Shown in pieces: positions 4,565-33,005 of a stretch of 49,154 bases of DNA (position 1 is the first letter of the stretch; each line of letters starts with the position of its first letter). The position numbers and the translations under genes were made by a program. The notes under the pieces are model-generated. The model saw only the letters and a list, made by a program, of their open reading frames with translations, searched no databases and was not told the DNA's origin. The DNA comes from Candidatus Termititenax sp. (GTDB lineage: Bacteria > Margulisbacteria > Riflemargulisbacteria > GWF2-35-9 > DYQY01), in NCBI GenBank assembly GCA_020719045.1, contig DYQY01000011.1:1-49154 (forward strand), written 5' to 3'.

Positions 4565-6580
4565 ATGAAATTAAGTATTAAGTACAAAGTAACTCTATTC
4601 TTTTTAGCAACTATTATTTTTACGGTTGTTGTTTCCGTGTTTATTATTGCTTCTTTTAGTACAACTCGTGCAGCTTTAGTTCATGATGATTTGATAAGAA
4701 AGTTTGCTTATGAAAACTCGTCAGAAATTATTGCTCATAACTCAACAATTCTTGATTATAAAATGATGATTCTTGGCAAAAAGAGTTCCCATGTTAGCGC
4801 AATGTTTTTAATTGATAATAAGAAAGAAGTTGTCGCCAAGTACGATCCTAATAAGATTGTGTTAGATTTAGTCAAAACTGTTATAGCAGATGAAAATATT
4901 GGTAGAGATTTCTTTTATATTCAGAGTGGGTCTCGTTATGTTGTTGTGATGCGACTAGACATGAACGGGATGTTAATCGGTATTCTATGTGGAGTATTTG
5001 ATAAATCTAGTTTTTTGGAAAACATTACTGGTATAGATGACAACATTAAGTTTTACTTAATATTTTCACTTTTGTTTGGGGTTGTTTTCGTTTTTTTAAT
5101 ATCGATATTGCTTAGTAAGCAAATAGTAGACCCAGTAATGGAAATATCTCAGTTTATTAATGAGAATAATCATCTTAGTCCTGAATTAATGAAGAATATA
5201 AAAATAAAAAAGAGGAAGTGTTGGGTTGATAAGAAGTGTAAGAATAATGAATGTGAAAAATATAAAGATGCTACAGCAAATTGTTGGGACAGATTTTTAG
5301 AGAACCAAAAAGGCGCTGATAACAACCCAATGCTTGCACCTTGCTTCGATTGTAAAGTTTTTTTAGGTCGCGAAGAGGATGAGATAGATAGGCTTAAGAT
5401 ATTTCTTAACCATCTTATCTCGAAGATGAGGTATCACTATAAACAAAGTAAACAGTACAGTCAGTCTTTGGAGGACAAAGTAAATAGAAGAACAGCAGAG
5501 TTAAGGGAAATTACTGATGATTTAATAGTGGCAAATTTAAAGACTCAAATGATTATTGAGAATGTGGCTGAAGGTATAGTTGTTGTTGATAAAAATAATA
5601 TTGTTATTCAGTTTAATCAAGAGGCAAAGAATAGTTTATTTGTTAAGTCAGACATTCATATACTAGGTAGCAGGTTAGAAGATGTATGGGAGGATAAGGA
5701 AGCCTCCAAAGAGATAATTGGTATTGCAAAGAAAACATTCTCTCTTCAAAAAGGCTTAGAATCGGAATTGCTTTACTCAACAGATAATCACCACAAGCAT
5801 TTTGTTGTTAGAACAACAATTGTTAATAATGAACACTTAGGAGAAACTTTTGTTATTTTACTGATTAGAGATAATACAAATGCAAAAATAGTAGAGAATT
5901 TTAAAAATGATTTTTTCCATATGATTTCACATGATTTAAGGAACCCATTATCAAGCGTAATAGGGTTTTTGGATTTGCTTCTTAATGGGTCTAGTAAATC
6001 AAAACTGCAGGATAAGCAGAAGAAATATTTGGAGTTTGCGAGTAAGAGTGCGAGTGATCTTAAGAAAATGTTAGATGATTTAAGTATTATTATTAAAATG
6101 CAACAAAGAAAGATAGATTTAAGTGTTGAGATATTCTTTGTGAATGATTTGTTTATTGAGGTTCAGCAGTCTTTTTATCCGCTTTTTTTACAGAATGATA
6201 TAGATTTTAAGTTTAAAGTAACACCTAACGATTTAACATTGATGGCAGACTATCAGCGAATTAAGCAGGTATTGTCTAATCTTATTGGTAATGCAATTAA
6301 GTCTGGGGAAAATATTTCAATTAAGCTTGAAGCTGTAAGTTTGTCTTCTAATTTACTAATGGTTATAGAGGACACTGGAAAAGGAATTCCTGAAGAAAAA
6401 ATACCGTTGTTATTTGAAAGGTTTACTCAGCTACATACTTATCATGATTCAGATACAGGGCTAGGGCTAGGGTTGTCTATTGTAAAAAATATAATTAACC
6501 TACATAATGGACATATTAGTGTTGATAGTCAGGTAAACAAAGGAACAAAATTTACGATAACGTTGCCGAATAATGGTTAA
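4565..6580 (+). CDS. Membrane sensor histidine kinase with a Cys/Trp-rich (two-CW-like) insert
   Basis: 671 aa. Order: membrane span (about 10-30), extracytoplasmic sensor region (about 33-160), second span (about 165-185), then a cysteine-rich segment with C219-W220, C225, C230, C240-W241, C260 and C263. Next come a coiled coil, a PAS domain (about 325-440), HisKA with phospho-acceptor H456 in MISHDLRNPLS, and HATPase_c with NLIGNAIKSG, DTGKGIPEE and GLGLGLSIVK. The six cysteines, two of them in CW pairs, resemble the two-CW type segment found near HAMP regions of some signalling proteins; metal or redox binding is a guess. A good AGAGG ribosome site precedes the ATG. Its stop overlaps the start of a second kinase, so both are made together. 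No response regulator gene is near, so the target is unknown. Confidence 0.88.
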   Translation: MKLSIKYKVTLFFLATIIFTVVVSVFIIASFSTTRAALVHDDLIRKFAYENSSEIIAHNSTILDYKMMILGKKSSHVSAMFLIDNKKEVVAKYDPNKIVLDLVKTVIADENIGRDFFYIQSGSRYVVVMRLDMNGMLIGILCGVFDKSSFLENITGIDDNIKFYLIFSLLFGVVFVFLISILLSKQIVDPVMEISQFINENNHLSPELMKNIKIKKRKCWVDKKCKNNECEKYKDATANCWDRFLENQKGADNNPMLAPCFDCKVFLGREEDEIDRLKIFLNHLISKMRYHYKQSKQYSQSLEDKVNRRTAELREITDDLIVANLKTQMIIENVAEGIVVVDKNNIVIQFNQEAKNSLFVKSDIHILGSRLEDVWEDKEASKEIIGIAKKTFSLQKGLESELLYSTDNHHKHFVVRTTIVNNEHLGETFVILLIRDNTNAKIVENFKNDFFHMISHDLRNPLSSVIGFLDLLLNGSSKSKLQDKQKKYLEFASKSASDLKKMLDDLSIIIKMQQRKIDLSVEIFFVNDLFIEVQQSFYPLFLQNDIDFKFKVTPNDLTLMADYQRIKQVLSNLIGNAIKSGENISIKLEAVSLSSNLLMVIEDTGKGIPEEKIPLLFERFTQLHTYHDSDTGLGLGLSIVKNIINLHNGHISVDSQVNKGTKFTITLPNNG

Positions 6581-8453
6581 TTTATTTACTTATTTATCTT
6601 TAGAAAGTATCTCCTTAGGACAGCTGTATCAACAGTTCGTTATAATACTTTTTTCAATAATTATTTTATTTTCTGCATATTTTAGTATAGCAAAACTCCC
6701 TGTAAGTCATAATATGAAGTTGAGATTCAAGATAATTTTTATCAGTCATGTGATAATTTTATTTAATTCTTGTATGTTTTTTATTTTTCTTCAGTTGGCA
6801 AAATATAGCTATAATACGCCTTCTTTTTGGTTGCCAATATTTAGTATTTTAATTCAGCTAGGGTATTTGTTGGGGCACGTAATGCTACCCCTTGCTCTTA
6901 TCGTTCCGCAATATGTGCATGATGGAAGATTCAAAAGAATAATTTTATCTTTTTTTGGTGTTTTTGCTTTTTTCTTAGTCGTTTTATTTGCAATTACTAT
7001 TAAGTCAGAGTGGACAGAGGCTTATAAGTTTTTGATTAATGATGTGTGGATTGTTATTGTTGCTGAGCTATTGTTTGTAGTAAGTGTTGGCGTAATGATT
7101 ATTCTGAGCAAGCTTAAGTCTAACTTGTTTTTGGCTTTTGCAAGTTTAAATTTGTTTTTGGCTAATGGTTTACATTTTTTTACACTTGTTCAACCTAAAT
7201 ATATTAAGTATTTGGTTGTTTATAATCTGCTTATTATTTTAGCAAATATCCTTGTGGAAATTTATATATTTTTTGAGATTATTAAGGCGCTTAGATTTAG
7301 CAATAATGAAGTTCAAAAACTTAATAATGAATTAGAAAATAAGATTCAAGAGCGTACTCAAGACTTGTTTAATAGCAACAAAGAGTTGTTTCAGTCAAAC
7401 TATATGCTTCATCAAGAAAAAGAAAAATTAAATGCAATTATTCGTAATATTGATGAAGGAATTATTGTTAGTAACATAAGTGGAAATATTCTTTTAATTA
7501 ATGATAGCGCAATAAAGATACTTGGTATTAAGGATAAGAAAGTTGGGTCATTAATTAAAGAAATAGTTCAAGATAATGATTACATTAAAGAGATGAACAG
7601 TTTGGTTTTGAAAAAAGTTAGGAAGATTAGTAAAGATTTGATGCTTAACTTAGATGGTGAAGATCGCCATATACAGTTTATTTCAACACTTTCTATTGAT
7701 TCAAAAGATAACATTATTGGAATTATTACTTTAATTCGAGATGTTTCAAAAGAGATTGAAGTTGAGCGTTTGAAGACAGGTTTTTTAAGAACAATATCGC
7801 ATGAGCTTAAGACTCCATTAACAACAATTATTGGTTTTGCTGAAACGCTTTCATCAGAAAGAAGAGGTCAGCTAAATAAAGAACAGAAAGATTTTGTGGA
7901 GATTATCGTAAGCGAAGGAGAGCACCTCCATAGACTTATTTCTAATTTATTGGAGTTTACAAAGATAAGCTCAAGTAAGGCCAGCGTTATGTTCGAAGAG
8001 TTTAATCTTAAGTCTGTTATCACAGAGATTATGGAGAGCTTCTTGCCTGTAGCAGAGTCAAAAGGAATTAAAATGAGCATTGATGAGAGTGTTGTTGTGC
8101 CTGCTATTCAGGCAGATAGGGCTAAGCTTCATAAAGCTTTTTTTAATGTTATAAAGAACGCAATTGATTATACGAATACAGGAGAGATAAGTGTAACCTT
8201 TAATATTGTAAAAAATAAAATAATAACACAAGTAAAGGATACAGGAGTAGGCATACCAGAGAGTGAACACTCAAGGATTTTTGATACTTTTTTTCAGTAT
8301 GATCAAAAGAAAGTAACAGGCTATAAGAGTGGTTTAGGGTTAGGCTTAGCAATAGCAAAGAATTTTATTCAAATCCATGATGGTAAGATTTGGGTAGAAA
8401 GTGAAAAAGATAAGGGCTCTGCTTTCTTTATTGAGTTGCCAATAGCTCGCTAA
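6573..8453 (+). CDS. Multi-pass membrane histidine kinase with PAS domain
   Basis: 626 aa. The first ~240 residues form about seven hydrophobic helices, in the style of 7TM-type kinase sensors. A coiled coil (about 245-290) leads to a PAS domain (about 290-395, NIDEGIIVSNISGNILLIN), HisKA with H410 in TISHELKTPLTTIIGF, and HATPase_c with NVIKNAIDY, DTGVGIPE and GLGLGLAIAK. The ATG overlaps the previous kinase gene by 8 nt, so translation is likely coupled. The two proteins could form a mixed kinase pair or one branched pathway; the sequence does not tell which. Its 3' end overlaps the 3' end of nadB by 26 nt on the other strand. Confidence 0.9.
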   Translation: MVNLFTYLSLESISLGQLYQQFVIILFSIIILFSAYFSIAKLPVSHNMKLRFKIIFISHVIILFNSCMFFIFLQLAKYSYNTPSFWLPIFSILIQLGYLLGHVMLPLALIVPQYVHDGRFKRIILSFFGVFAFFLVVLFAITIKSEWTEAYKFLINDVWIVIVAELLFVVSVGVMIILSKLKSNLFLAFASLNLFLANGLHFFTLVQPKYIKYLVVYNLLIILANILVEIYIFFEIIKALRFSNNEVQKLNNELENKIQERTQDLFNSNKELFQSNYMLHQEKEKLNAIIRNIDEGIIVSNISGNILLINDSAIKILGIKDKKVGSLIKEIVQDNDYIKEMNSLVLKKVRKISKDLMLNLDGEDRHIQFISTLSIDSKDNIIGIITLIRDVSKEIEVERLKTGFLRTISHELKTPLTTIIGFAETLSSERRGQLNKEQKDFVEIIVSEGEHLHRLISNLLEFTKISSSKASVMFEEFNLKSVITEIMESFLPVAESKGIKMSIDESVVVPAIQADRAKLHKAFFNVIKNAIDYTNTGEISVTFNIVKNKIITQVKDTGVGIPESEHSRIFDTFFQYDQKKVTGYKSGLGLGLAIAKNFIQIHDGKIWVESEKDKGSAFFIELPIAR

Positions 8454-9996
8454 AGAAGTGTATATGATCAAGGTTTTGGTTTGGTTTCGGGAAATCATCC
8501 CTATAATGCGTTCCTCTGCTTTCTTCTCTTGTTAAGGCATTGTCAGTTATAAGCATTCCCGTAATAAGCATATTTTTTGTTTCACCAAACAGAATTATTT
8601 CTTTTGAATTTGATTTCTTTATCCTTTTGTACAAATTGGTTAATAAATCTTTTAGTAGAAGTAGGTCGCTTTTGTTTCTTTGTATGCCTACTTTTAAGTA
8701 CATTTCTTTTTGAATAGTTTTTTGCATGTTAAGTAAATCTGTTTTACTGTATTCGCTTGTAGGAGTAATTTCAGGTTTTGTGTTAATCAGCACAGTTAGA
8801 GTAGTGGACTTTATTTTTTTATTAATATCTTCAGCTGCTTTATGTCCAAAAACCATGCACTCAAGAAGGGAGTTGCTTGCTAGTCTATTGGCTCCGTGGA
8901 CTCCAGTTGAGGCTACTTCGCCACAGGCATAAAGGTTTTTAATTGAGGTTCGTGCTTTGGTGTCTGTTTTGATGCCACCTATCATATAATGTGCGGCAGG
9001 AAGTATTTCAATCGCATTTTTAGTTAAGTCTATACCTGCTTCTAAACAGCTTGAGAATATAACCGGAAATTTGTTTGGAATATCAGGAATAGGTCTCATG
9101 TCTAAAAAGACTTTTTTGTTGCTTATAAGCTGGTTATAGATGGCACGAGCAACGATGTCTCTTGGTGCAAGCTCGCCTCTTTTGTCATAATCAAAGAGAA
9201 ATCTCTTATTGTCATCGTTAATAATAATGGCCCCTTCACCTCTAACTGATTCTGATATTAAAAAGTTTTTGATTTTGCCTTTTTCTAATAAAATAGCAGT
9301 AGGGTGAAACTGATAGAATTCCATATCGCGAATCTCTGCTCCAGCCATGTGTGCTGCGACAAGTCCGTCGCCAGTACTTCCTTTCCAGTTTGTTGTTTTT
9401 TCAAAAACAGCACCTGCACCTCCAGTTGCGATGATTGTACATTTGGAGGCTATGCTAAGTTCTTTTTTTGTTTTCATGTTAATAAATTTTGCTCCAGCGC
9501 AACATTTGTCTTGGATTATTAGGTTTTCAAGGAAGAGGTTTTCAATCAATGTTATGTTTGATCTATTTAGTGCTTCGTTAGTAAGTGTGGATTGGATACT
9601 GAAACCTGTTTTATCACGAACATGCATTATTCTTCTGCTACTATGAGCAGCTTCTTTTAGGAACTCAAATTCGTTGTCTTGTGTCCTATCAAATTTAACA
9701 CCAATACTAATTAAGTCCCATACTCGTGCAGGTCCCTCTGTGACAAGCATATTAACCGCATCTTCATCCGATAGTTCGCACCCAGTAAGTAGTGTATCGT
9801 TTTTGTGTATTGGTATGTCGGATGGTTCTTGTAGCGCCACAGCTACGCCACCTTGTGCATAAAAGGAGTTAGTGTTGTTCATTTTTCCTTTAGTTACTAT
9901 AGTAACTTTGATAGAAGGATTTAGATCAATTGCGGCAGTTAGACCAGCTATTCCACCTCCAATGATTAAGACATCCGTTTTTTGTTGGTTCTTCAT
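8428..9996 (-). CDS. nadB: L-aspartate oxidase
   Basis: 522 aa, normal length. It oxidises L-aspartate to iminoaspartate, the first step of de novo NAD synthesis, with FAD as cofactor and fumarate or oxygen as acceptor. The FAD-binding motif GGGIAG is at residues 13-18 and NSFYAQGGVAVAL follows. Family landmarks include ATGGAGAVF, EGAIIINDDNKRF, GELAPRDIVARAI (catalytic Arg) and STGVHGANRLASNSLLE. nadA and nadC, often adjacent, are not in this window. There is no ribosome site; a TATAAT box (10005-10010) ends 8 nt before the ATG, so the mRNA may be leaderless or nearly so. It lies 48 bp after an output-less sensor gene on the same strand. Confidence 0.95.
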   Translation of the reverse strand: MKNQQKTDVLIIGGGIAGLTAAIDLNPSIKVTIVTKGKMNNTNSFYAQGGVAVALQEPSDIPIHKNDTLLTGCELSDEDAVNMLVTEGPARVWDLISIGVKFDRTQDNEFEFLKEAAHSSRRIMHVRDKTGFSIQSTLTNEALNRSNITLIENLFLENLIIQDKCCAGAKFINMKTKKELSIASKCTIIATGGAGAVFEKTTNWKGSTGDGLVAAHMAGAEIRDMEFYQFHPTAILLEKGKIKNFLISESVRGEGAIIINDDNKRFLFDYDKRGELAPRDIVARAIYNQLISNKKVFLDMRPIPDIPNKFPVIFSSCLEAGIDLTKNAIEILPAAHYMIGGIKTDTKARTSIKNLYACGEVASTGVHGANRLASNSLLECMVFGHKAAEDINKKIKSTTLTVLINTKPEITPTSEYSKTDLLNMQKTIQKEMYLKVGIQRNKSDLLLLKDLLTNLYKRIKKSNSKEIILFGETKNMLITGMLITDNALTREESRGTHYRDDFPKPNQNLDHIHFFSELLATQ

Positions 9997-10004
9997 GATT
10001 ATGT

Positions 10005-10010
10005 ATTATA
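10005..10010 (-). promoter_or_regulatory. -10 box of nadB, near-leaderless arrangement
   Basis: Minus strand TATAAT, 8 nt, ATG. No convincing -35 is visible in the 48-bp gap. The predicted start of transcription is 1-3 nt before the ATG. Confidence 0.4.
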
Positions 10011-10044
10011 TGATATTTGTTGGTTTCAGGCGATGAATTGAGTG

Positions 10045-11340
10045 TTAATCATTGAAAATAAAGGTGAATATTTTGCCAGAAATCGTATTTTCCTGTTTTA
10101 GCGGTTCGTAATTTATTTGTACCTTCCTGCCATCTTTAAGCTCAAAATTCCCTAACTCAAAAGAGTTCTCGCTACATTTATTGTGAGTATCTATAAATTT
10201 TTCACTATCAATAATTTGGTAAGAGAAATATTTTATGAGCTGTTCTTCATTGTCGTTAATTACAACGTTTTCAGGTAAATCCCACTCTTTACATAGTTTT
10301 TCATTAGCTCGAAGCACTTCACCTTTATTGTTTAATACTAATACTCCGTTGCTGTATTTTGATTGAAGTAAGCTTTTTATTATTCCTTCGCTCTGTTTAA
10401 GCTTCTTTTCTGATGAACTTCTTCTTAATATTTCCTCTTTAAGCATTATATTTATTTCTTTAATAGCTTCTGCTTTTTCATCTATTGTTTCTTCTAGGTA
10501 GACTTTATTGAGAGTATATTCTGTTTCGTATTTCTTTCTTTTTTCTATTTCATTATTGAGTGCATTTATTTGCTGAGAAATAGTATTTTTCATGTTTATG
10601 TACCCAGATATTAATGGTTCAAATTCTGAATTTTTTAATGCCGTGTAGTTGTGTGTCTTTTCAGTTATTGCTCCACTTGTGGCAACTTCTTCTAAATCAG
10701 TAATAATTTCCTCAAGTGGTTTGGTTACGAGATTCGTGAAAATTTTGATTAGAGATAGTCCAATTAGGAAAGTAACTATGACCATCAATATACTGCCCAA
10801 TAAAGCCTTTTGTTTTTCTTTGTTTATTTCTTTGGAAGAGTACTCCATTATTATGCCTCCAAGAGGCATGTCCTCTTCATAAAGAGGAACATTAACATAT
10901 AAGGATTTTTTGTTAAAAGTAATGGATGCTTTTTTGTGTGTAAGAGCTTTATATAATTTTGGAAAAACCAATAGAGGTTCGTTTTTTAGTGTGTGTATAT
11001 TTTTGCGATCAGAGTATATATAAATTTCTTTGAGGTTAGGTACTCTATTTTTTAGCTCTTTAAAAACAGAATGCCCTTGGATATCAAGTACGATTTTAAC
11101 GTAGTTTCTTTTATCTTCTATAGTTTCTATGGAGTTTAATCTAGCCATTGTTTGTTGTTGTAGAGGGTTAAGTAGCTGTATTGTTTGAGTTTTGAGACTG
11201 TTTATAATAATATTTTTAGCATTATAATATAAAAATATTCCCGTAATCGAAGAAATTAATATCTGTATTAAAAGCGTTGAGAGTATGACTTTATTCTGAA
11301 TTGTGTTTATTATTATTTTTTTTTGCTTAGGTGCTATCAT
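10045..11340 (-). CDS. Membrane sensor (sensor region, HAMP, coiled coil, PAS) without output domain
   Basis: 431 aa. A membrane span (about 18-40) is followed by a periplasmic region (about 41-175), a second span (about 180-202), a HAMP-like linker (FTNLVTKPLEEIITDLEEV), a long coiled coil (about 255-320) and a PAS domain (about 325-430). The protein stops right after the PAS core. No kinase, GGDEF, EAL or MCP domain follows, and the 48 bp before nadB cannot hold one. Its ATG overlaps the stop of the preceding periplasmic-binding-protein gene by 4 nt (ATGA), so they are translated together. This recalls LuxP/LuxQ-type pairs in which a binding protein reports a small molecule to a membrane sensor. 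Here the signal would have to pass to a separate partner, or the gene is truncated. Confidence 0.8.
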   Translation of the reverse strand: MIAPKQKKIIINTIQNKVILSTLLIQILISSITGIFLYYNAKNIIINSLKTQTIQLLNPLQQQTMARLNSIETIEDKRNYVKIVLDIQGHSVFKELKNRVPNLKEIYIYSDRKNIHTLKNEPLLVFPKLYKALTHKKASITFNKKSLYVNVPLYEEDMPLGGIIMEYSSKEINKEKQKALLGSILMVIVTFLIGLSLIKIFTNLVTKPLEEIITDLEEVATSGAITEKTHNYTALKNSEFEPLISGYINMKNTISQQINALNNEIEKRKKYETEYTLNKVYLEETIDEKAEAIKEINIMLKEEILRRSSSEKKLKQSEGIIKSLLQSKYSNGVLVLNNKGEVLRANEKLCKEWDLPENVVINDNEEQLIKYFSYQIIDSEKFIDTHNKCSENSFELGNFELKDGRKVQINYEPLKQENTISGKIFTFIFND

Positions 11341-12293
11341 GGTTTTTTAGAGTTTTTTACTTTATAAGATAGAGATTCTTTGGTTATTAATATAGGTAAT
11401 ATAAGCGTTTCTTTTTGGTAGGGGGCATTATTTAAAATAAGGTGGGTTGTTTTAACAGTTTCTTCTGCCATTTTGTCAGAGTCTTGAGCAACAGTTGCAT
11501 CTATTCTGCCTCTTTTGATTAATTCAATTGTTTGAGGCAATCCATCAAATCCAATAAATATTATATCTTTTGTTGATTTTAAGTTATTCCAATATGCCTC
11601 TGCGACAATAATGCCGGGGTCCCAACAACTATATACTGTAGTAATGTCATTTTCTTTTGATAGGTATTTTTTACATAAGTTATATGCTTCTTCAGTCGAC
11701 CAATTAGTGTGAGTTATTATGTAGTCCATACCACCTTGGTTGCATGTTTCAGTAAAACCTTTTATTCTGGAACTAGAATTTGGGTGTTTTTCTTCTCCTC
11801 CTAGGATGAGTGCTTTAGATTTTTTATGAGTTAATTTTTTAATTTGCTTACAAGCGTACTCTCTTGCAAGTTTTCCTCCAAAAAGATTGTCGGAAGTGAT
11901 AAATGCTTTAACCGCTGGGTGAGTATGATTAGTGTCAATTAGAATAACAGGGATGTTGGCTTTTTGAAATTTGGTTAGAGCTTCGTTTAGTTTGTTGAAG
12001 TTTATAGGTGAGCCTATTCCAAGTATTAGTGCGTGAGCTTTTTGTTTAAGAGCAAATTCCATTAATTCAGTTTGTTCATTTTCTTTAGGTAGCTGTGTAG
12101 TTGTAAGGTCAATAATATCAAGATTGTATTTTGCAGAAGAATTTTGAACTTTATTCCCAAGGTCACTCCAGAATGGTTTAGCTTGAGTATATCCAATATA
12201 AATGATTTTATGCCTAAATGTATCTTTGCATAATACAAATGATGATAGATTAAGTAGCAATATTATAATGTACAAAAATAATCTATTATACAT
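11337..12293 (-). CDS. Periplasmic sugar-binding-like protein (Peripla_BP_4 type)
   Basis: 318 aa with an N-terminal hydrophobic export signal (about 1-22). The mature part fits the ribose/galactose-binding fold: opening strand IIYIGYTQAKPFWSDLGNKV, ALILGIGSPINFNKLNEAL, IPVILIDTNHTHPAVKAFIT, ITSDNLFGGKLAREYACK, ALILGGEEKHPNSSSRIKG and IIFIGFDGLPQTIELIKRG. No ABC permease or ATPase lies nearby. The next gene, overlapping by 4 nt, is a membrane PAS sensor, so it more likely acts as a signal receptor than in transport. Ligand unknown; a sugar, AI-2-like compound or other small polar molecule is possible. There is no Shine-Dalgarno; a promoter ends 6 nt before the ATG. Confidence 0.85.
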   Translation of the reverse strand: MYNRLFLYIIILLLNLSSFVLCKDTFRHKIIYIGYTQAKPFWSDLGNKVQNSSAKYNLDIIDLTTTQLPKENEQTELMEFALKQKAHALILGIGSPINFNKLNEALTKFQKANIPVILIDTNHTHPAVKAFITSDNLFGGKLAREYACKQIKKLTHKKSKALILGGEEKHPNSSSRIKGFTETCNQGGMDYIITHTNWSTEEAYNLCKKYLSKENDITTVYSCWDPGIIVAEAYWNNLKSTKDIIFIGFDGLPQTIELIKRGRIDATVAQDSDKMAEETVKTTHLILNNAPYQKETLILPILITKESLSYKVKNSKKP

Positions 12294-12299
12294 AACTAT

Positions 12300-12329
12300 A
12301 TAATAACTCTAACTAGCACTTAATATCAA
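12300..12329 (-). promoter_or_regulatory. Promoter of the binding-protein/sensor operon, leaderless arrangement
   Basis: Minus strand TTGATA (12324-12329), 18-nt spacer, TATTAT (12300-12305), then 6 nt to the ATG. The predicted start of transcription coincides with the A of ATG. Confidence 0.55.
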
Positions 12330-12344
12330 AGGTGTTAGCTAATA

Positions 12345-15300
12345 TTATTTTCTTTTTTTGAATCCATCAACTATTGCAATAAAACATGGAACAACAAAGA
12401 GTGTTAATAGAGAAGCACCAAGTAGCCCGTAACCAAGAGACATTGCCATTGGCATAAGGTACTCATCATAACCTCCAAGACCGTATATCATTGGGACAAC
12501 GCCACCAACGGTAGTTACTGTTGTGAGGATAATTGGTCTTAATCTTGTAACCGAACCTTCTATAATACAATCGATGCATTGCTTGTGAGTTTTGCTATCA
12601 ACCTTCTTGATTTGATCTACCATAATTAGGGAGTCATTTACTACTACTCCCGCAAGACCGACAAACCCTATTAGTGCTTGGAATGTTAGTGGCTTGCCGT
12701 GTAATGCAAAGGCTAATATTACTGGCATAATGCTTAGCGGGATGGCTGTCATTATAAGTATTGGCTCAATAAATGAACCAAACCCAAGAATAAGTATGAA
12801 GTAGATGCTAATTACAGCAATTACAAACAGTTTGCCAATGTCTGCAAAAGAGTCCATTGTTTCTTTGCCTTCACCTTTATATTCGAAAGTTACCGCTGGG
12901 TATTTATCTACAAGCTTGCTGTCAATGAATACTTTAGCTTTTTTCATTACTTCAAGAGCAGTGGTTTCTCCCTTAACTATATTTCCTTCAACTTTTATTG
13001 ATCCAAGTCTATCATATCTTACAATTGTTGGAGTATTTTTATGTGGGTCAAGTGTTGCAAAGTTTTTAACTCTAATTAGCTTACCCTCCTTGTTCATGAT
13101 CGGTAGCTCCAGTAAATTATTACTGTCTTTTCTGAACTCTGGTGCAAGTTTAACAATTAGGTCAATCGATTCATTCCCTTCTCTAATTGATGTTATGGTC
13201 GTTCCAGAAAAAGCTGTTCGTAGAGTAGATGCGACTCCATAGATATCAAGTCCAAGCATGCTTATCTTTTCGTTATCGATATTTAGTCTTAATTCTTCTT
13301 TTCCTTCTGCAACATCATCTTCTATTTCACTTGTTCCTTTTGTTTTTTGTAGGAAAGTTACTAATGCATTAGCTGCAGCGTTTTTTTGAGCTTCGTCATT
13401 AGAGAGTAACTGAATAGAAATTGCCTTACCTGCTTGAGGTCCACGTGCTCGTATTTCTGTAATAACTTTTTCGAAGCCACCAACATGAGGTTTCATTTCT
13501 TGTTTAAGTTTATCAATGATTTCTTGAGCAGTTCTTTCCCTTGTATTTTTTGGTGTTAAATATACATATAGAATTGCACGATTTGAGTCTGTTCCAAGAT
13601 TTGACCAATAAATTTGTGAGTCATATCCAACTCTTCCCGAAAATGATTCCATTTCTTCTTTAGGTAATTGTGCTACTAAATTTTCAATAGGACTAATCAT
13701 TTTAAGTGTTTTTTCAATTGGTGTACCAATAGGAGTTTCGAATTTGATAGTAAATTCAGTTGCTCCTTCTACTGGTGCAAAGTAAAAAGGAATGTATTTT
13801 TTCGCATACCAAATTGAGAATATGAAAAGCAAGAAAATAAATAATAAAAATTTAAATTTATGTTTAATAACAATCGTTAGTGTTTTTCTGTAGCCATTTT
13901 CTAATGCAATCATAAACTTTTTTTTGCCAACTATTTTTTCTTTTTTTCCTTCTTTATGACTTAGATGGGTTGGAAGTATAAACAATGATTCAAATAAAGA
14001 TGCAAGAAGTACAAGAATAACAACTGCAGGGATAGCGTAAATGAACTTTCCCATAATGCCAGGAAGAAAAATAAGTGGAAGGAAAGCTACAATAGTAGTA
14101 ACAATCGAGAATATAACAGGAAAGGCAATGTCGGCAACAGCTTCTACAATATCTTTAGTACTAGTTTTCCCTTCTTCTTTAGTTTTATGGATGCTTTCTG
14201 ATACAACTATCGCATCATCAACCAACATCCCTAATACAAGGATTAGCCCTCCTAAGCTAAGTGCGTTTAGAGTAAGTCCAAGTTGTTTGAAAAAGAGAAA
14301 TGATAGTAAAAAAGAGAAAGGAATTCCGAAAGATGTCCAGAAAGCAGTTTTAAGGTCTAAAAATAACCAAAGTAGACCAAAAACAAGGACCATTCCCATT
14401 AGTCCATTTGAAATAACCATATCAAGTCTATTTTTTGTGTATTTGGATAGGTCATTGCTAAGGGTATAGGAAGTTCCTTCTTCCCATTTAGTTGAGTTCA
14501 ACACTTTTTTTACAGCTCTAATAGTTTTTAGAATATCAGCACTTTCTTTTTTGTGGATGCAAAGTGAGATTGATGTTTGATTGTTGCTCCTAACATAAAG
14601 GTCTTGTTTCTTATAATCTTTTACAACATTTGCAATATCTTTTATTTTTAGGTTATTGCCGGAGAAGTTGGATCTAATAATGATATTTTTTATTTCTTTA
14701 GGTTCTTTAAGTTCTTTAACTGTTATAACACTTTTTTCTTTTGGTGTGGTTTCGAGTATCCCACCTGATAGTCTTATGTTGTTAGCATTAACGACATTAA
14801 GTATTTCGGTGATAGATGTTTCAGTTGATTTGAGTTTAGAAGGGTCAACCTCTATTCTGATTTCTTTATCTCTATAGCCAACTTTGCTTATTTTACTTAC
14901 CCCAGAAGCTCTTCTAAGTTTTAAGTCTAGTTTGTCAGTCATTTTTCTGACAGATGTTTCATTTTTGCCCTGGATGTTAACTTCTAAGATAGGGAACATA
15001 CTTGTTTTTATTTCCATAATTATTGGTTTTTTAAGTATGTCTTTAGGTAACTCACTTATTCTATCTATTGTTTTTTCAATGTCACGTTTAACATCATCTG
15101 CTTCTCGGTCATTTAGATTGCCATCTATTTCGATGACTACTTGAGATAAACCTTCTTGGCTTACAGATGATATGCTCTCTATTCCTTCAGTTTCTTCTAA
15201 GGCATCTTCGATAACCATGGAAACATTAAGTTCAATGTCTGATGGTGCAGCTCCTGGGTAGATTGTGGTTACCACAAGTTGGTTTATGGTAACATTTGGG

Positions 15301-15413
15301 ATTCCTTCTTTTTGCATGGTTAATACAGTAAGTATTCCAGCTAGGAAAACCATAATTACTAATAAGTTAACAAGGAGTTTTCTTTCAAGGAAAAAGTTTA
15401 TTAGGTATTTCAT
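12345..15413 (-). CDS. RND efflux transporter, AcrB/HAE family
   Basis: 1022 aa, full length for the trimeric inner-membrane proton/drug antiporter. It has the usual duplicated plan: one N-terminal span (about 12-30), a large periplasmic loop, a block of spans, a second large loop and a last block. The TM4 motif GMLVDDAIVVSE carries the paired Asp of the proton relay. The start lies 2 nt after the tolC-like gene's stop, and its ribosome site (GGAGAG) is inside that gene's last codons, so the two are coupled. A periplasmic membrane-fusion subunit, normally required, is not encoded in this operon. Substrate cannot be predicted. Confidence 0.93.
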   Translation of the reverse strand: MKYLINFFLERKLLVNLLVIMVFLAGILTVLTMQKEGIPNVTINQLVVTTIYPGAAPSDIELNVSMVIEDALEETEGIESISSVSQEGLSQVVIEIDGNLNDREADDVKRDIEKTIDRISELPKDILKKPIIMEIKTSMFPILEVNIQGKNETSVRKMTDKLDLKLRRASGVSKISKVGYRDKEIRIEVDPSKLKSTETSITEILNVVNANNIRLSGGILETTPKEKSVITVKELKEPKEIKNIIIRSNFSGNNLKIKDIANVVKDYKKQDLYVRSNNQTSISLCIHKKESADILKTIRAVKKVLNSTKWEEGTSYTLSNDLSKYTKNRLDMVISNGLMGMVLVFGLLWLFLDLKTAFWTSFGIPFSFLLSFLFFKQLGLTLNALSLGGLILVLGMLVDDAIVVSESIHKTKEEGKTSTKDIVEAVADIAFPVIFSIVTTIVAFLPLIFLPGIMGKFIYAIPAVVILVLLASLFESLFILPTHLSHKEGKKEKIVGKKKFMIALENGYRKTLTIVIKHKFKFLLFIFLLFIFSIWYAKKYIPFYFAPVEGATEFTIKFETPIGTPIEKTLKMISPIENLVAQLPKEEMESFSGRVGYDSQIYWSNLGTDSNRAILYVYLTPKNTRERTAQEIIDKLKQEMKPHVGGFEKVITEIRARGPQAGKAISIQLLSNDEAQKNAAANALVTFLQKTKGTSEIEDDVAEGKEELRLNIDNEKISMLGLDIYGVASTLRTAFSGTTITSIREGNESIDLIVKLAPEFRKDSNNLLELPIMNKEGKLIRVKNFATLDPHKNTPTIVRYDRLGSIKVEGNIVKGETTALEVMKKAKVFIDSKLVDKYPAVTFEYKGEGKETMDSFADIGKLFVIAVISIYFILILGFGSFIEPILIMTAIPLSIMPVILAFALHGKPLTFQALIGFVGLAGVVVNDSLIMVDQIKKVDSKTHKQCIDCIIEGSVTRLRPIILTTVTTVGGVVPMIYGLGGYDEYLMPMAMSLGYGLLGASLLTLFVVPCFIAIVDGFKKRK

Positions 15414-15415
15414 GA

Positions 15416-16858
15416 TTATCTCTCCATTAGTTTATTTATTTTATCAAGCAAAGTGTCGTTCTGGCTGGCAATTGATGTTTTAAGTTTTGCTATGGCAATT
15501 ATTTTGTTTTGGTGGTCTATTTTGCTTTGTGTATACTTTTGTCTAAAGTCAGAGATGCTAAAAAGTGAGGTTTTTCCTTGGGAGAATCTTTTGCTTTCTA
15601 TATCTAGGATTGATTTTGCATTATCAGCTATTTTGTTTGCATTGTTTTCTATGCTTTTTAAATTAGCTAAGTTTAGTAGACTGTTTTGGTAAAGAGTTTC
15701 TAGTGTTTGTTTTGTTTTGAGTATTTCTTGGTTGGTTGTTTTTATGTTTGCAAGAATGCTTTTTGCTTGTCCTTCTGTGCTGTTTTGTCCAAGAGGAGTG
15801 GAGAAGGTTATTCCTGCTATGTATTTAGTCTTATCTAGGCCCAAAAATGATTCGCTTGAACTATTGGTGTTCTTATAGCGCGATACTTCACCATAAATTG
15901 ATAAATCAGTCATATTTTCCCTATTAATTTTTTCTAAATCCAACTCATACTGTTTTAGTGTCCTTTCAAGTGAGGCGATTATTCTGGGTGTTGGAAGATT
16001 CAAGATTGGTTCTTCTTGGCAAAACTGTTCACATATCTCTGGGCGATTTGGAAGGTTTTCCCATTTAGTTACTGCAGTGAATTTTTTGCCCATTTTTTGA
16101 TAAATATTTGAGCCGAGTGAATTCCATGCGTATAGCGTATCATTTAGAGCATTCCTGTAGATTAGAACTGCGTTCTCTGCCTGGAGTAAATCAGTTTTTA
16201 GGGCAGCATCATTACGATATTTTTCCTGAACTTCTTCGTAAAGTATCATTGCATTCTTATAGCTAATGCTTAGTGGCTCTAAAGCTAGAGTTAGTGATAC
16301 CCAATCATAGTATTGATTAATAGCATCATGATAGTATTTTTCTTCAGCTTCTTTAATGGATAGTTCAATAAATTCTTTTTGTAATCTAAGTCTATTTAGT
16401 GGCATCTTGCTATAAATGCCAAGCTCATCCTTAAGTAAAGGTTGTGTAAGTCTAAGAGCCAGAGAAGGGTATATTTGTGAAAGATTTAAGGTAGAAAGTT
16501 TTGAGCTATTGTCTAATCTCATATAAGTAAGGCTGACATTTGTTCCTGTGTCTTCAAGTTTTTTACTAAGAACAACTGATCCAACAACTAATTGAACAGC
16601 AGTGAGGGGAACAGATGTTCCTCCCGAACTATAGAGTTGTTCTTCTTGATTAGTGTATTCAAGCGAGCCTGACATCTTAGGATCGTAAAGCGTTTGAAAT
16701 GATTGAATAGAACCGTCAATACTTTGGAGGTTAATAAATAGCTGAGAGTATGCTGGGTCATTTTTTGTTATATTTATGAGAAAATCCTTAAGAGTAAAGT
16801 TATTTGAAAATGAAACGCATCCTATGAGTAATAGTGTGATTAATTTAAATTTTTTCAT
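15416..16858 (-). CDS. TolC-family outer-membrane efflux protein
   Basis: 480 aa with a signal peptide (about 1-18). The body is long alternating coiled-coil helices and short strands in two repeats, the outer-membrane-factor plan: for example LRLTQPLLKDELGI, RLRLQKEFIELSIKEAEEKYYHDAINQYYDWVSL split across the first repeat, and AKSILDIESKRFSQGKTSLF in the second. It would form the trimeric exit duct for the RND pump. A strong AAAGGAG site precedes the ATG. It overlaps the 3' end of the tetR gene by 14 nt and abuts the pump gene, so tetR-tolC-RND form one operon. Confidence 0.88.
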   Translation of the reverse strand: MKKFKLITLLLIGCVSFSNNFTLKDFLINITKNDPAYSQLFINLQSIDGSIQSFQTLYDPKMSGSLEYTNQEEQLYSSGGTSVPLTAVQLVVGSVVLSKKLEDTGTNVSLTYMRLDNSSKLSTLNLSQIYPSLALRLTQPLLKDELGIYSKMPLNRLRLQKEFIELSIKEAEEKYYHDAINQYYDWVSLTLALEPLSISYKNAMILYEEVQEKYRNDAALKTDLLQAENAVLIYRNALNDTLYAWNSLGSNIYQKMGKKFTAVTKWENLPNRPEICEQFCQEEPILNLPTPRIIASLERTLKQYELDLEKINRENMTDLSIYGEVSRYKNTNSSSESFLGLDKTKYIAGITFSTPLGQNSTEGQAKSILANIKTTNQEILKTKQTLETLYQNSLLNLANLKSIENNANKIADNAKSILDIESKRFSQGKTSLFSISDFRQKYTQSKIDHQNKIIAIAKLKTSIASQNDTLLDKINKLMER

Positions 16859-17441
16859 ATTGTTTCTCCTTTTTTTGTAGTGCTCCGTATAGGAAGATGT
16901 TTATTGTTTTTATTAGTTCATCTTCGTTTGGTTGTTTTTCTAAGACGTATGATTTAAGGAATAAGTATGAGAATACAGACATTATAAAGGCAAGTAAAAG
17001 TGATGTTGGGTTTGTGTCTATTATTTTGCCATCATTTATATATCTTTGAATTTTATCAATAATTGGATTATTGTTGTTTTTAATCTTTTCTTCCAGAAGG
17101 ATTTGGAAATATTTACCTTTAAATTCTAAAAAATCAATCATTCTAAGTTTCATGGTTTCTATTTTAAATGATTTTAGAAAGATAGTAGCAAATTTTCTAA
17201 AAAATATCTCAGGTTCATCGTTTTCAGTTAGAAGTGAGTTTATGTTTTCTATAAAGGTGTCAAAAGGGATTGCTTGATTAAGTACTTCTTTGAATAAGTC
17301 CTCTTTGCTGTTGAAATAGGAATATATACCTCCTTGTGAAACTCCTGAGGCATTTGTTATGTCACGCATACTTGTTCCGTGAAACCCTCTTTCAAGGAAT
17401 CTTTGTTTTGCAGAACTTAAAACTATTTCTTTTGTAGACAT
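16845..17441 (-). CDS. TetR-family repressor of the efflux operon
   Basis: 198 aa. The N-terminal TetR helix-turn-helix is clear: AKQRFLERGFHGTSMRDIT, then SGVSQGGIYSYFNSKEDLF (about residues 12-50). The C-terminal ligand domain is variable, as usual. An AAGGA site precedes the ATG. An inverted repeat GAGCG-TT-CGCTC lies 17 bp upstream, overlapping the predicted start of transcription. The gene is first in the operon and overlaps tolC, so it most likely represses itself and the pump until an inducer, probably a pump substrate, binds. Confidence 0.92.
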   Translation of the reverse strand: MSTKEIVLSSAKQRFLERGFHGTSMRDITNASGVSQGGIYSYFNSKEDLFKEVLNQAIPFDTFIENINSLLTENDEPEIFFRKFATIFLKSFKIETMKLRMIDFLEFKGKYFQILLEEKIKNNNNPIIDKIQRYINDGKIIDTNPTSLLLAFIMSVFSYLFLKSYVLEKQPNEDELIKTINIFLYGALQKKEKQYEKI

Positions 17442-17531: not shown

Positions 17532-18953
17532 TTATTTTTCGCCTTCAATGAGGGTATTTAAATTAGCTATTATTTCATTTAATTGTACAAGGTTTTCTTG
17601 TAGTGTAATGGTTAGACTGGTGGTAGAGTCAGTAGCATTTGAGGTTAACTGAACAGATTCGCTCATTTCGTTAATGCTAGTATTAATTTGAGATATTCCT
17701 GATGCTTGCTCACTGTTAGCTGCACTCACTTCAGTTATTAAGTCTAATACCGTTTGAGTTCCTTTTGTTATTTTTTGTAGTCTTTCGTTTACGCTATTTA
17801 CGGCAATAACGCCATCTTGGCTATGTTCCATGGCGATTTTAATAATGTCACCAGTGTTTCTAGCAGCTTCAGCACTTTTTTGTGATAAGTTTCTAACTTC
17901 GCTAGCAACAACAGCAAATCCTGCGCCAGCCTCACCGGCTCTTGCTGCTTCAACCGCAGCATTAAGTGAAAGGATATTTGTTTGAAAGGCAATTTCATCA
18001 ATCGTCTTTATGATTTTAGATGTTTGGTCTGAGGAGTCTTTTATTTTATTTATTGCTTCAGACATTTTTAGCATTTCATGAGTAATTGTTTGTACTTCTT
18101 TGTTTACTTCATCTGTAAGCGATTGGACTTGATGTGAATTTGAGGCATTTTTCTGTGTCATACTAGATATTTCATGAATCATTGATGACGTTTCTTGTAT
18201 TGCTGCTGCTTGTTTTGCGCTTTCGATAGAAGTGTTTTGGCTTTGTGTTTTTATTTGATCAGTACTTTCTGATACTGAGTTTGCTGTTTCAGTTAGTATT
18301 TGTGATATTTGTTCTACAGGTTTTGTGATGCTCATAGAAATAATATAAGTAATAAACGAAACAATAATAATCGAAACTAAAAATACTGTAATAAATAGGT
18401 ACTTAATAATATTGTTTGATGTAATCATCTTTTTGTAATCTTGTGCGCTTAAGTTTGTTTCAAACGCAAGTAATTCTTTTAGTTCAGAATTTATTTTATT
18501 AAAACTATCTTCAAGGTTGCCTAGTAGGGCATTCATCATAAAGGTAGAATCATGGTTATCGTATACCTCAGTATAGGCACCTATGTATCCATCTAACGAC
18601 TTGATTATGTTTTCTAGAAATACTTCTTCTTCTTTTGCTAGTTTTTTGTCATTAAGTTTTGTTGCTAATTTTTCTTTGTTTTTGTTGAAAACATCTTGTA
18701 TAAGTTGGTGTTGATTTGCGATTTTGTCATCAGGTAACTCGATGTTAACCCAATTAACAAAGGTGTTTATGTTGTTTTGATTGCTATATAGTTCAGAAAT
18801 AACTTCTGAGCAGAATTGATAATTTTGAAATCTTAATAAATATATATTATTGGTGGATTCGGATATCTTGGAGATCCCAAAGAGGGACAATGCTCCAATT
18901 ATAATAAAGAAGCATAAGAACAATGCTGGGGAAAGAAATATCTTCCCCAGCAT
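17532..18953 (-). CDS. Methyl-accepting chemotaxis protein
   Basis: 473 aa. Membrane span (about 8-27), periplasmic helical-bundle sensor (about 28-185), second span (about 187-208), HAMP (about 209-260) and the cytoplasmic signalling domain with the hairpin-tip sequence EIAFQTNILSLNAAVEAARA, GFAVVASEVRNLSQKS. It signals through CheA/CheW, which are not in the window. It lies 64 bp downstream of a secreted Cache-domain protein on the same strand, probably its operon partner. The ATG sits inside a 13-bp perfect hairpin. The frame is open for 13 codons upstream of it (including NKLTFLNRIS, which looks like normal MCP sequence) but offers no ATG, GTG or TTG. The start is therefore uncertain. Confidence 0.9.
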   Translation of the reverse strand: MLGKIFLSPALFLCFFIIIGALSLFGISKISESTNNIYLLRFQNYQFCSEVISELYSNQNNINTFVNWVNIELPDDKIANQHQLIQDVFNKNKEKLATKLNDKKLAKEEEVFLENIIKSLDGYIGAYTEVYDNHDSTFMMNALLGNLEDSFNKINSELKELLAFETNLSAQDYKKMITSNNIIKYLFITVFLVSIIIVSFITYIISMSITKPVEQISQILTETANSVSESTDQIKTQSQNTSIESAKQAAAIQETSSMIHEISSMTQKNASNSHQVQSLTDEVNKEVQTITHEMLKMSEAINKIKDSSDQTSKIIKTIDEIAFQTNILSLNAAVEAARAGEAGAGFAVVASEVRNLSQKSAEAARNTGDIIKIAMEHSQDGVIAVNSVNERLQKITKGTQTVLDLITEVSAANSEQASGISQINTSINEMSESVQLTSNATDSTTSLTITLQENLVQLNEIIANLNTLIEGEK

Positions 18954-19017: not shown

Positions 19018-19497
19018 CTAATCTTTCTTGTAAACCCCAGCACCTAAATAAGTACCTTTTTTAGCATCTAATTGAATCAAATATGATATTTTTGCTTTTA
19101 GTTTTTCTGTTTTTGGCTCTGGCCAGTAGTACTCTACCCATCCAGTTTTGTTTTCTTTAGTTACTTTTACGAATTCTTGAATGAATAGCTTACCGTTAGG
19201 GTCTTTCATGTTCCCCAGGTCTTTACCGACTAATTTTGGAGTAACAGGCTGAACTTTACAGGTTGTTCCTTCAAACAAGAATATGTATAAATCGCCTTTA
19301 AAGAATTTTCCATCTTTTTTTTGGAATTCAGCAAAAGCTTTTGCTTCACCTTCTTTGTTATAGTAAGCAGCAGCATCTTCAACGAATTTCTTAACTTCTG
19401 CTCTTTGTGCCTGAATTTCTTTGCTTTCTGTCCATGTTTCAGCAAAAGACATTCCCATCATTAAAGCCACTAACAAAATACCTAAAACTTTTTTCAT
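19018..19497 (-). CDS. Secreted single-Cache-domain sensor protein
   Basis: 159 aa with a clear signal peptide (about 1-19, cleavage after SFA). The mature part reads as one small Cache domain: an N-terminal helix (VKKFVEDAAAYYNKEG), FAEFQKKDGKFFKGDLYIFLFE, GKDLGNMKDPNGKLFIQEFV and the closing strands GWVEYYWPEP...SYLIQLDAKKGTYLGAGVY. In chemoreceptors this domain is normally part of the receptor. Here it is free in the periplasm and the chemoreceptor encoded next to it has a helical-bundle sensor instead. I infer a ligand-binding partner acting in trans. AGGAGG ribosome site 9 nt before the ATG. Confidence 0.85.
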   Translation of the reverse strand: MKKVLGILLVALMMGMSFAETWTESKEIQAQRAEVKKFVEDAAAYYNKEGEAKAFAEFQKKDGKFFKGDLYIFLFEGTTCKVQPVTPKLVGKDLGNMKDPNGKLFIQEFVKVTKENKTGWVEYYWPEPKTEKLKAKISYLIQLDAKKGTYLGAGVYKKD

Positions 19498-31754: not shown

Positions 31755-33005
31755 TTATTCAGAGTCAGATTCAGAGGTATCTTTGTTCCCTCTTTTCATA
31801 ATTCCATTTTTAGATTCTGCTTGAAGAAAGGATATTAAGTGGTTAACTTCGTGTGAATCAATTTTTAATTCTTTTTCAATTTTTTCAATTGCTTGGCTAG
31901 TATTCATGCTAGAGCGGAATAATGCTTTATAAGCTTCTTTCATGTCTCGTTGGTTTTGTTTTGAAACATCATTTCTTTCAAGTCCAATAATATTCATGCT
32001 TCTTATGCATGCTGGGTTTCCTTCAACAAGCATGTAAGGTGGTACATCTTGGTTTACTTTTGAATATCCGCCAACCATTGCCATGGTGCCAATTCTACAG
32101 AACTGGGTTATTCCTGCCATTCCACCAAGAATTGCTTTATCCTCAATTTGCACATGACCTGCAACTTGTACTGCATTTGACATAACAATATTGTTGCCTA
32201 ATTTACAGTCATGTCCAATATGCACCATTGTTAGTAGTAAGCAGTTATCTCCAATTATTGTCGCCTCGTCTTTTATCGTAGCTCTGTTGATTGTTACGTA
32301 TTCTCGTATGTCACAATTTTTGCCGATAATTACAAAGCTTTTGTCTGTTTTGTTGAACTTTTTATCTTGTGTGGAGTTTCCAATAATTGCACCATAGTGT
32401 ACATGTGTGTTTTCTCCAATTGTTGTCCATTTTTCAATAACAACATTGGCCTCAATAGTAACATTGTTACCTAATACTACACCTTCACCTATGTAGGCAT
32501 TTGGTCCGATTTTAACGTCTTTTCCTATTACTGCATTTGGGTGAATTTTGGCAGATGGGTCTATCAATGTTTCAAGTTGTGAGTTAACTAAAGAGAAGGT
32601 CATTTCTGTTTCTGCTACAAGATTTCCATCAACAAAAGCTTTGCCTGAAGATTTTGCAACTGGTCCTCTAATTTTTTGTATTTCAACTTCAAATCTTATT
32701 TGATCACCAGGTGTTACTGGTCTTTTGAATCTTGCATCATTTATGGAAGCAAAATAAGCGATTTTGCCTTTTGTAGCAGGTGTGTTCAGTAAAATAATTC
32801 CAGAAAGTTGAGCCATTGCTTCAATAATTAGAACTCCAGGCATAACTGGTTGACCAGGAAAATGTCCTTGAAAGTATGCTTCATTGATGGTTGTGTTCTT
32901 GATTGCCACAGCTCTTGTTTCGTTCGCTTCTAAAACACGGTCTATTAGTAAGAAAGGGTATCTGTGTGGAAGAATGTTCATTATTTCGTTAATGTTGAAA
33001 GTCAT
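31755..33005 (-). CDS. FabZ-LpxA fusion: hydroxyacyl-ACP dehydratase and UDP-GlcNAc acyltransferase
   Basis: 416 aa, one unbroken frame. Residues 1-~140 are FabZ: LPHRYPFLLIDRV, catalytic H48 in QGHFPGQPVMPG and E62 in LIIEAMAQ. After a linker (SLVNSQLETL) residues ~148-400 are LpxA: left-handed beta-helix hexapeptides from IDPSAKIHPNAVIG, catalytic H265 in VHIGHDC, and the C-terminal helical part after NIIGLERNDV. An acidic Ser/Glu tail ends it. Both use 3-hydroxyacyl-ACP: FabZ dehydrates it for fatty acid elongation, LpxA uses it for lipid A, so fusing them couples the two competing fates. The start overlaps the PilO-like gene by 4 nt. Confidence 0.93.
   Translation of the reverse strand: MTFNINEIMNILPHRYPFLLIDRVLEANETRAVAIKNTTINEAYFQGHFPGQPVMPGVLIIEAMAQLSGIILLNTPATKGKIAYFASINDARFKRPVTPGDQIRFEVEIQKIRGPVAKSSGKAFVDGNLVAETEMTFSLVNSQLETLIDPSAKIHPNAVIGKDVKIGPNAYIGEGVVLGNNVTIEANVVIEKWTTIGENTHVHYGAIIGNSTQDKKFNKTDKSFVIIGKNCDIREYVTINRATIKDEATIIGDNCLLLTMVHIGHDCKLGNNIVMSNAVQVAGHVQIEDKAILGGMAGITQFCRIGTMAMVGGYSKVNQDVPPYMLVEGNPACIRSMNIIGLERNDVSKQNQRDMKEAYKALFRSSMNTSQAIEKIEKELKIDSHEVNHLISFLQAESKNGIMKRGNKDTSESDSE

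Follow-up and report, generated by a model that had tools for sequence, protein, structure and literature searches.

Structures have been published for periplasmic binding proteins on sensor kinases, and passages of the review PMC6321045 name XylFII-LytS, TorT-TorS and LuxP-LuxQ and cite the structure of XylFII. LytS is described there as a histidine kinase, and passages of PMC9769921 give it a four-helix bundle as its periplasmic module. A different arrangement, also treated in PMC9769921, is GlnH-GlnX-PknG of Corynebacterium and mycobacteria, which combines a binding protein and an output-less membrane protein with a separate kinase. As far as the passages of that paper go, HAMP, kinase and receiver domains are all missing from GlnX, and neither the GlnH-GlnX nor the GlnX-PknG interaction had been shown. 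Sensor kinases can also associate with one another in mixed complexes, an example being RetS as an optional partner of GacS (PMC5992135). Among the titles and abstract beginnings returned by our literature search, there was no HAMP-PAS case of an output-less binding-protein sensor or PAS sensor.

Here we describe a locus of Candidatus Termititenax sp. (contig DYQY01000011.1 of assembly GCA_020719045.1; the window is the whole stretch analysed, 49,154 nucleotides) in which a binding-protein gene adjoins the gene for a membrane sensor that stops after a PAS domain. It resembles GlnH-GlnX, as presented in the passages of PMC9769921, in that the binding-protein gene lies beside a membrane protein without output, whose signal is thought to reach a separate partner. 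However, GlnH belongs to SBP_bac_3 and the protein found here to Peripla_BP_4; GlnX has four transmembrane segments and our sensor two; GlnX has an all-helical model without HAMP, whereas the sensor continues as a HAMP-like linker, coil and PAS; and pknG is in the same putative operon as glnH-glnX, whereas there is no partner kinase in the operon studied here. With the binding-protein-coupled sensor kinases LuxPQ, TorTS and XylFII-LytS the locus shares the adjacency of the binding-protein and sensor genes. XylFII-LytS, which also joins a signalling binding protein to a membrane sensor, provides the best solved profile match (XylFII), but LytS has a kinase and a helical bundle, whereas our sensor lacks a kinase, and low-confidence models of its periplasmic region contain strands as well as helices. 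LuxP-LuxQ and TorT-TorS likewise pair a binding protein with a membrane sensor that has a periplasmic domain; NCBIfam lists LuxQ as a sensor kinase/phosphatase and TorS as a sensor histidine kinase/response regulator, and the kinase domains of both have no counterpart here. Finally, the coil and PAS are like those of the scytonemin-type sensor kinase NF045595, but this profile is that of a histidine kinase and the sensor ends after PAS. From GlnH-GlnX-PknG, its closest published counterpart, the pair differs by its HAMP-like-coil-PAS layout, its two transmembrane segments and the lack of a kinase in its operon.

Results

A binding-protein gene adjoins a membrane sensor without output domain

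The pair consists of the following two genes:

11337-12293 (-): binding protein, putatively periplasmic (perhaps a lipoprotein), sugar-type, 318 aa; Peripla_BP_4, E 1.3e-37
10045-11340 (-): output-less membrane sensor, 431 aa; open reading frame with a syntenic 429-aa copy in a second member of the genus

A preliminary description of this DNA had proposed a binding protein beside a membrane sensor that lacks an output domain, and the open reading frames, Pfam and the syntenic copy all confirm this. The ATGA-type overlap that it reported is present in the window, where the two frames share 4 bp; in the second species the genes do not overlap and are 2 nt apart. The sensor could be divided as follows:

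11227-11292 (-): TM1, residues 17-38, by hydropathy
10813-11226 (-): periplasmic region, residues 39-176, without a Pfam or credible PDB match
10723-10812 (-): TM2, residues 177-206, by hydropathy
10567-10725 (-): HAMP-like linker, residues 206-258, by reading of the sequence; 57% identity between the two species
10369-10566 (-): helical or coiled-coil segment, residues 259-324, overlapping the NF045595 match; 61% identity
10051-10368 (-): C-terminal PAS, residues 325-430, matching NF045595 and DcuS 2w0n; the stop codon follows almost at once

Hydropathy gave two hydrophobic segments in both species, flanking approximately 140 residues in the sensor. Regarding the HAMP-like stretch, which was recognised by eye, Pfam found no HAMP match even at E<=1. 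The coil and the linker are the best-conserved parts of the sensor between the two species, as expected of a signalling path. Pfam matched the PAS weakly and below its cut-off (PAS_9, E 0.13). Residues 283-426, comprising coil and PAS, matched the sensor histidine kinase model NF045595 with an E value of 3.7e-13 and aligned to profile positions 119-263 of 637; at 48.7 bits against a curated cut-off of 865 bits, this does not make the sensor a member of the family. A four-sequence PAS profile, whose alignment took in two other PAS proteins of the phylum, matched the DcuS chain 2w0n (E 0.0061), which we take to be the PAS domain of DcuS. The proposed order of periplasmic region, HAMP-like linker, coil and PAS, followed by the end of the protein, was therefore borne out, with the HAMP part assigned by eye.

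No HisKA or HATPase match was found on the sensor polypeptide in either species. Downstream of the sensor we detected no output domain in any of the three frames of the window and no kinase in any frame of either species; nadB comes next, in the window after 48 nt. Searching solved structures by sequence with the sensor, as a single sequence and as a two-row profile, gave no match at E<=1, and the periplasmic region gave only a chance match to a ribosomal protein (E 0.65). Single-sequence models of this region were mixed alpha/beta, with strands, at low confidence (mean pLDDT 43.6 and 49.3), and a fold search with the low-confidence model returned nothing at E<=0.001.

The sensor ends at the same point in a second species

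We searched 74 genomes of the phylum with a profile of the sensor (E<=1e-5) and obtained matches in four, including the window genome. Two of these, the window genome and one other member of the genus, have the full-length sensor, and no other full-length copy was found among the 74; the remaining two match in the coil-PAS part only. In the second genus member, HK1, HK2, nadB, sensor, binding protein, RND, OEP and TetR have the order and orientation seen in the window (functions assigned by alignment to the window genes). Its sensor has 429 aa, is 51% identical without internal gaps, ends at the same point and has the binding-protein gene as its neighbour. Pairwise comparison of the sensors gave a dN of 0.37 and a dS of around 2.9, which is near saturation. 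Hence, both genes are conserved in two species and the sensor is under purifying selection. Among the eight genes compared it has also, at 51% identity, diverged furthest, and its constraint may therefore be relaxed.

The preliminary description had allowed for truncation, to be recognised from close homologues that all run on into a kinase or GGDEF domain. The sole close full-length homologue (n=1 in the genomes searched) ends identically, and this shared stop after PAS suggests that the receptor is genuine and has been maintained. A frameshift, a stop or readthrough as the cause of a truncation was rejected, as only nadB lies downstream and the end is the same in the second species.

The two coil-PAS matches are PAS-PAS proteins of 302 and 333 aa with the sensor's PAS type (L009 1138-2046(+) and L010 1252-2253(-), respectively), which likewise end soon after the matching part and have no kinase match. 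We also sought an in-genome parent kinase for the coil-PAS and found none: at E<=10, its only match in the genome was a chance-like one of E 0.019, in a protein that reads as RecJ-like and is not a convincing relative. Besides, GTDB-wide scans with short patterns gave 73 stretches for the sensor and 67 for the binding protein, none of which was confirmed; outside the phylum these scans are a weak test.

The binding protein looks dedicated to sensing

The binding protein has a hydrophobic N-terminus (residues 3-25), and C22 is invariant in both species; given these features, export is probable and the protein may be a lipoprotein. The window genome has no other Peripla_BP_4 protein. BPD_transp_2 is the permease family of such sugar importers, and it had no match in either genus member (G000, G001), although it was found in three of the six other genomes searched. 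Judged on this permease family alone, the binding protein is not part of an ABC importer, and we consider a transport role unlikely.

A two-sequence profile of the binding protein ranked three XylFII entries first (5xsj at E 3.2e-24), followed by ribose-binding protein (E 1.1e-21 and 1.4e-21), whereas the single-sequence query placed the ribose-binding protein 7e7m first and XylFII second. The database names 5xsj, 5xss and 5xsd only as periplasmic binding proteins; we take them to be XylFII of XylFII-LytS. With a single Peripla_BP_4 protein, no BPD_transp_2 and XylFII leading the solved profile matches, the protein looks dedicated to sensing rather than transport.

Four positions align with ribose-binding-protein positions that are presumably pocket residues: the D of IDTN/IDSN, the R of NSSSRIKGF, the D of GFDG and the Q of VAQDSD. 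The position that we take to be N190 of ribose-binding protein is W. The ligand is thus likely to be sugar-like but changed, and the motifs of the binding protein are kept in both species. In the search for further binding proteins, run over 69 genomes of the phylum at E<=1e-15, a match in G073 was read as a permease-binding-protein fusion of the RbsC-RbsB kind and rejected as a sensor partner.

The pair probably closes an efflux operon

Upstream and downstream of the pair we identified the following genes:

16845-17441 (-): TetR-family regulator, with which the operon probably begins; TetR_N, E 5.6e-16
15416-16858 (-): outer membrane efflux protein (OEP); PF02321, E 2.4e-17
12345-15413 (-): RND efflux permease, 51 nt upstream of the pair; ACR_tran, E 5.2e-182; syntenic in the second species
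8428-9996 (-): nadB, separated from the stop of the sensor by 48 nt; TIGR00551, E 3.1e-157, above cut-off

The TetR, OEP, RND, binding-protein and sensor genes are co-directional, and none of the gaps or overlaps between them exceeds 51 nt; the gap between RND and binding protein is 51 nt in the window and 38 nt in the second species. The binding protein and sensor had been credited with a shared leaderless-type promoter. There is indeed a hexamer pair matching at 10 of 12 positions (12329-12300, reverse strand) just before the binding-protein ATG, with its -10 box ending at 12300, but the region holds 30 promoter-like sites where 31.3 are expected and the second species lacks this -10 box. 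With sites at chance level and no conservation of the box, the proposed promoter is not upheld, and it is more likely that the pair ends a TetR-OEP-RND efflux operon as part of one transcription unit. There is no kinase gene in this probable operon, the neighbours being TetR, OEP, RND and nadB. A TATAAT lies 8 nt before the nadB ATG (window 9997-10030), and 6 nt before the likely ATG in the second species. nadB may have its own leaderless-type promoter, in which case the sensor would be the last gene of the operon.

OEP-RND cassettes without an adjoining adaptor (membrane fusion protein) gene were observed at window 12345-16858, L045 2724-7312 and L044 6252-10906. The adaptor model HlyD_D23 had no match in the window genome and at least one in each of the other seven of the eight genomes searched. 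Elsewhere in the window, a chemoreceptor-type protein (17532-18953(-), MCPsignal E 2.8e-37) has a gene for a 159-aa sCache_2 protein just upstream (19018-19497(-), E 9.7e-17), and the two are possibly another split receptor; neither frame is present at the corresponding position of the second genus member, which otherwise keeps the flanking genes. We also noted, next to an LpxB gene, a lipid A gene fusion whose protein combines a FabA-like domain with acyltransferase domains of the hexapeptide, LpxA type (31755-33005(-)), and a protein that joins a CHASE2 sensor to an adenylate/guanylate cyclase domain (46885-48669(+)).

The neighbouring kinases occur without the sensor

Two histidine kinases lie beyond nadB:

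4565-6580 (+): HK1, membrane histidine kinase with PAS; candidate but not dedicated partner
6573-8453 (+): HK2, multi-TM histidine kinase with PAS; candidate but not dedicated partner

The PAS of HK2 scores above the Pfam cut-off and that of HK1 is weaker. The N-terminal part of HK2 matched in seven of the 74 genomes, which are all seven genomes of the order examined, and that of HK1 matched in the same seven and in one more. Five of the seven order genomes carrying HK1-HK2 lack the sensor, so the kinases do not need it. In one genome (G002) HK1-HK2 is convergent with nadB and there is no sensor; in another (G006) it has neither nadB nor sensor alongside, and the related RND cassette of this genome has no binding protein and no sensor. 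The binding protein and sensor appear to have been added in this genus. HK1 also contains a cysteine-rich stretch after its TM2/HAMP-like region (residues 218-265, window 5216-5359), with CW and C..C motifs in pairs; the second species keeps all six cysteines of the stretch, which is a possible metal or redox site.

Discussion

We propose that the pair forms a split receptor that signals in trans through HAMP, coil and PAS, a reading to which we give an even chance. The binding protein would bind a sugar-like ligand in the periplasm, and the periplasmic region of the sensor would read its ligand state by contact. The signal would then pass TM2 and the HAMP-like linker to the coil and PAS, the direction being that suggested by the architecture, and a contact of the PAS or coil would hand it to a partner encoded by another gene, the simplest candidate being a histidine kinase that contains PAS. 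This reading draws support from GlnH-GlnX-PknG, the precedent for an output-less membrane protein with a separate kinase in the passages of PMC9769921, and from the architecture, end point and neighbour being equal in both genus members examined. Against it stand the lack of a kinase in the operon and of a coil-PAS relative in the genome, the divergence of the sensor, and the presence of the pair in only two genomes.

The preliminary description had suggested that one of the nearby kinases, at 4565-8453, is perhaps the partner. In such a scheme the sensor would control HK1 and/or HK2 through mixed complexes of the kind known for RetS with GacS (PMC5992135). Both genus members keep the order HK1, HK2, nadB, sensor, binding protein and RND, both kinases have a PAS, the clearer one being in HK2, and no response regulator gene adjoins them. 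However, HK1-HK2 is present in all seven genomes of the order, five of them sensor-less, and the coil-PAS is not recognisably similar to either kinase. Moreover, an inherited arrangement of the kinases with nadB may account for the proximity, as in G002 HK2 is convergent with nadB without a sensor. We therefore regard control of these kinases as unlikely; the suggestion is weakened as far as a dedicated partnership goes, and an optional one is possible.

Still less probable is a degenerate or dominant-negative remnant, now drifting, of a PAS kinase whose C-terminus was already lost when the two species diverged. It would fit the match of the coil-PAS to a stretch of the NF045595 histidine kinase model, a sensor that evolves fastest in the block, a PAS below the Pfam cut-off and a HAMP that Pfam does not find; but the frame is open, the two copies have near-equal lengths and align at 51% identity without internal gaps, dN is far below dS, and the binding-protein motifs are kept in both species. 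About as improbable is a local action of the pair on the RND efflux system with which it shares its operon (gating, assembly or substrate report, with PAS as the effector contact), for although the TetR-OEP-RND-binding protein-sensor order and its short gaps recur in both species and other RND cassettes that we read (G006 C40, G000 C24) have no such pair, no precedent came up, a sugar-type binding protein is no obvious fit for a drug-type pump, and the pair may simply be co-transcribed with RND.

A fuller version of the split receptor, to which we hold more tentatively and at somewhat less than an even chance, is that it is specific to this lineage and that its HAMP-coil-PAS, gated by the binding protein, serves as a pure adaptor, devoid of any enzyme, that switches a separate kinase or the efflux pump by PAS or coil contact alone. 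If the split receptor is real, a binding-protein receptor would work with only HAMP, coil and PAS inside the cell, and the locus would be a natural minimal case for what PAS alone passes on. It would add another route, besides that of GlnX, for binding-protein signalling without an attached kinase, and would caution against dismissing output-less sensors as truncations.
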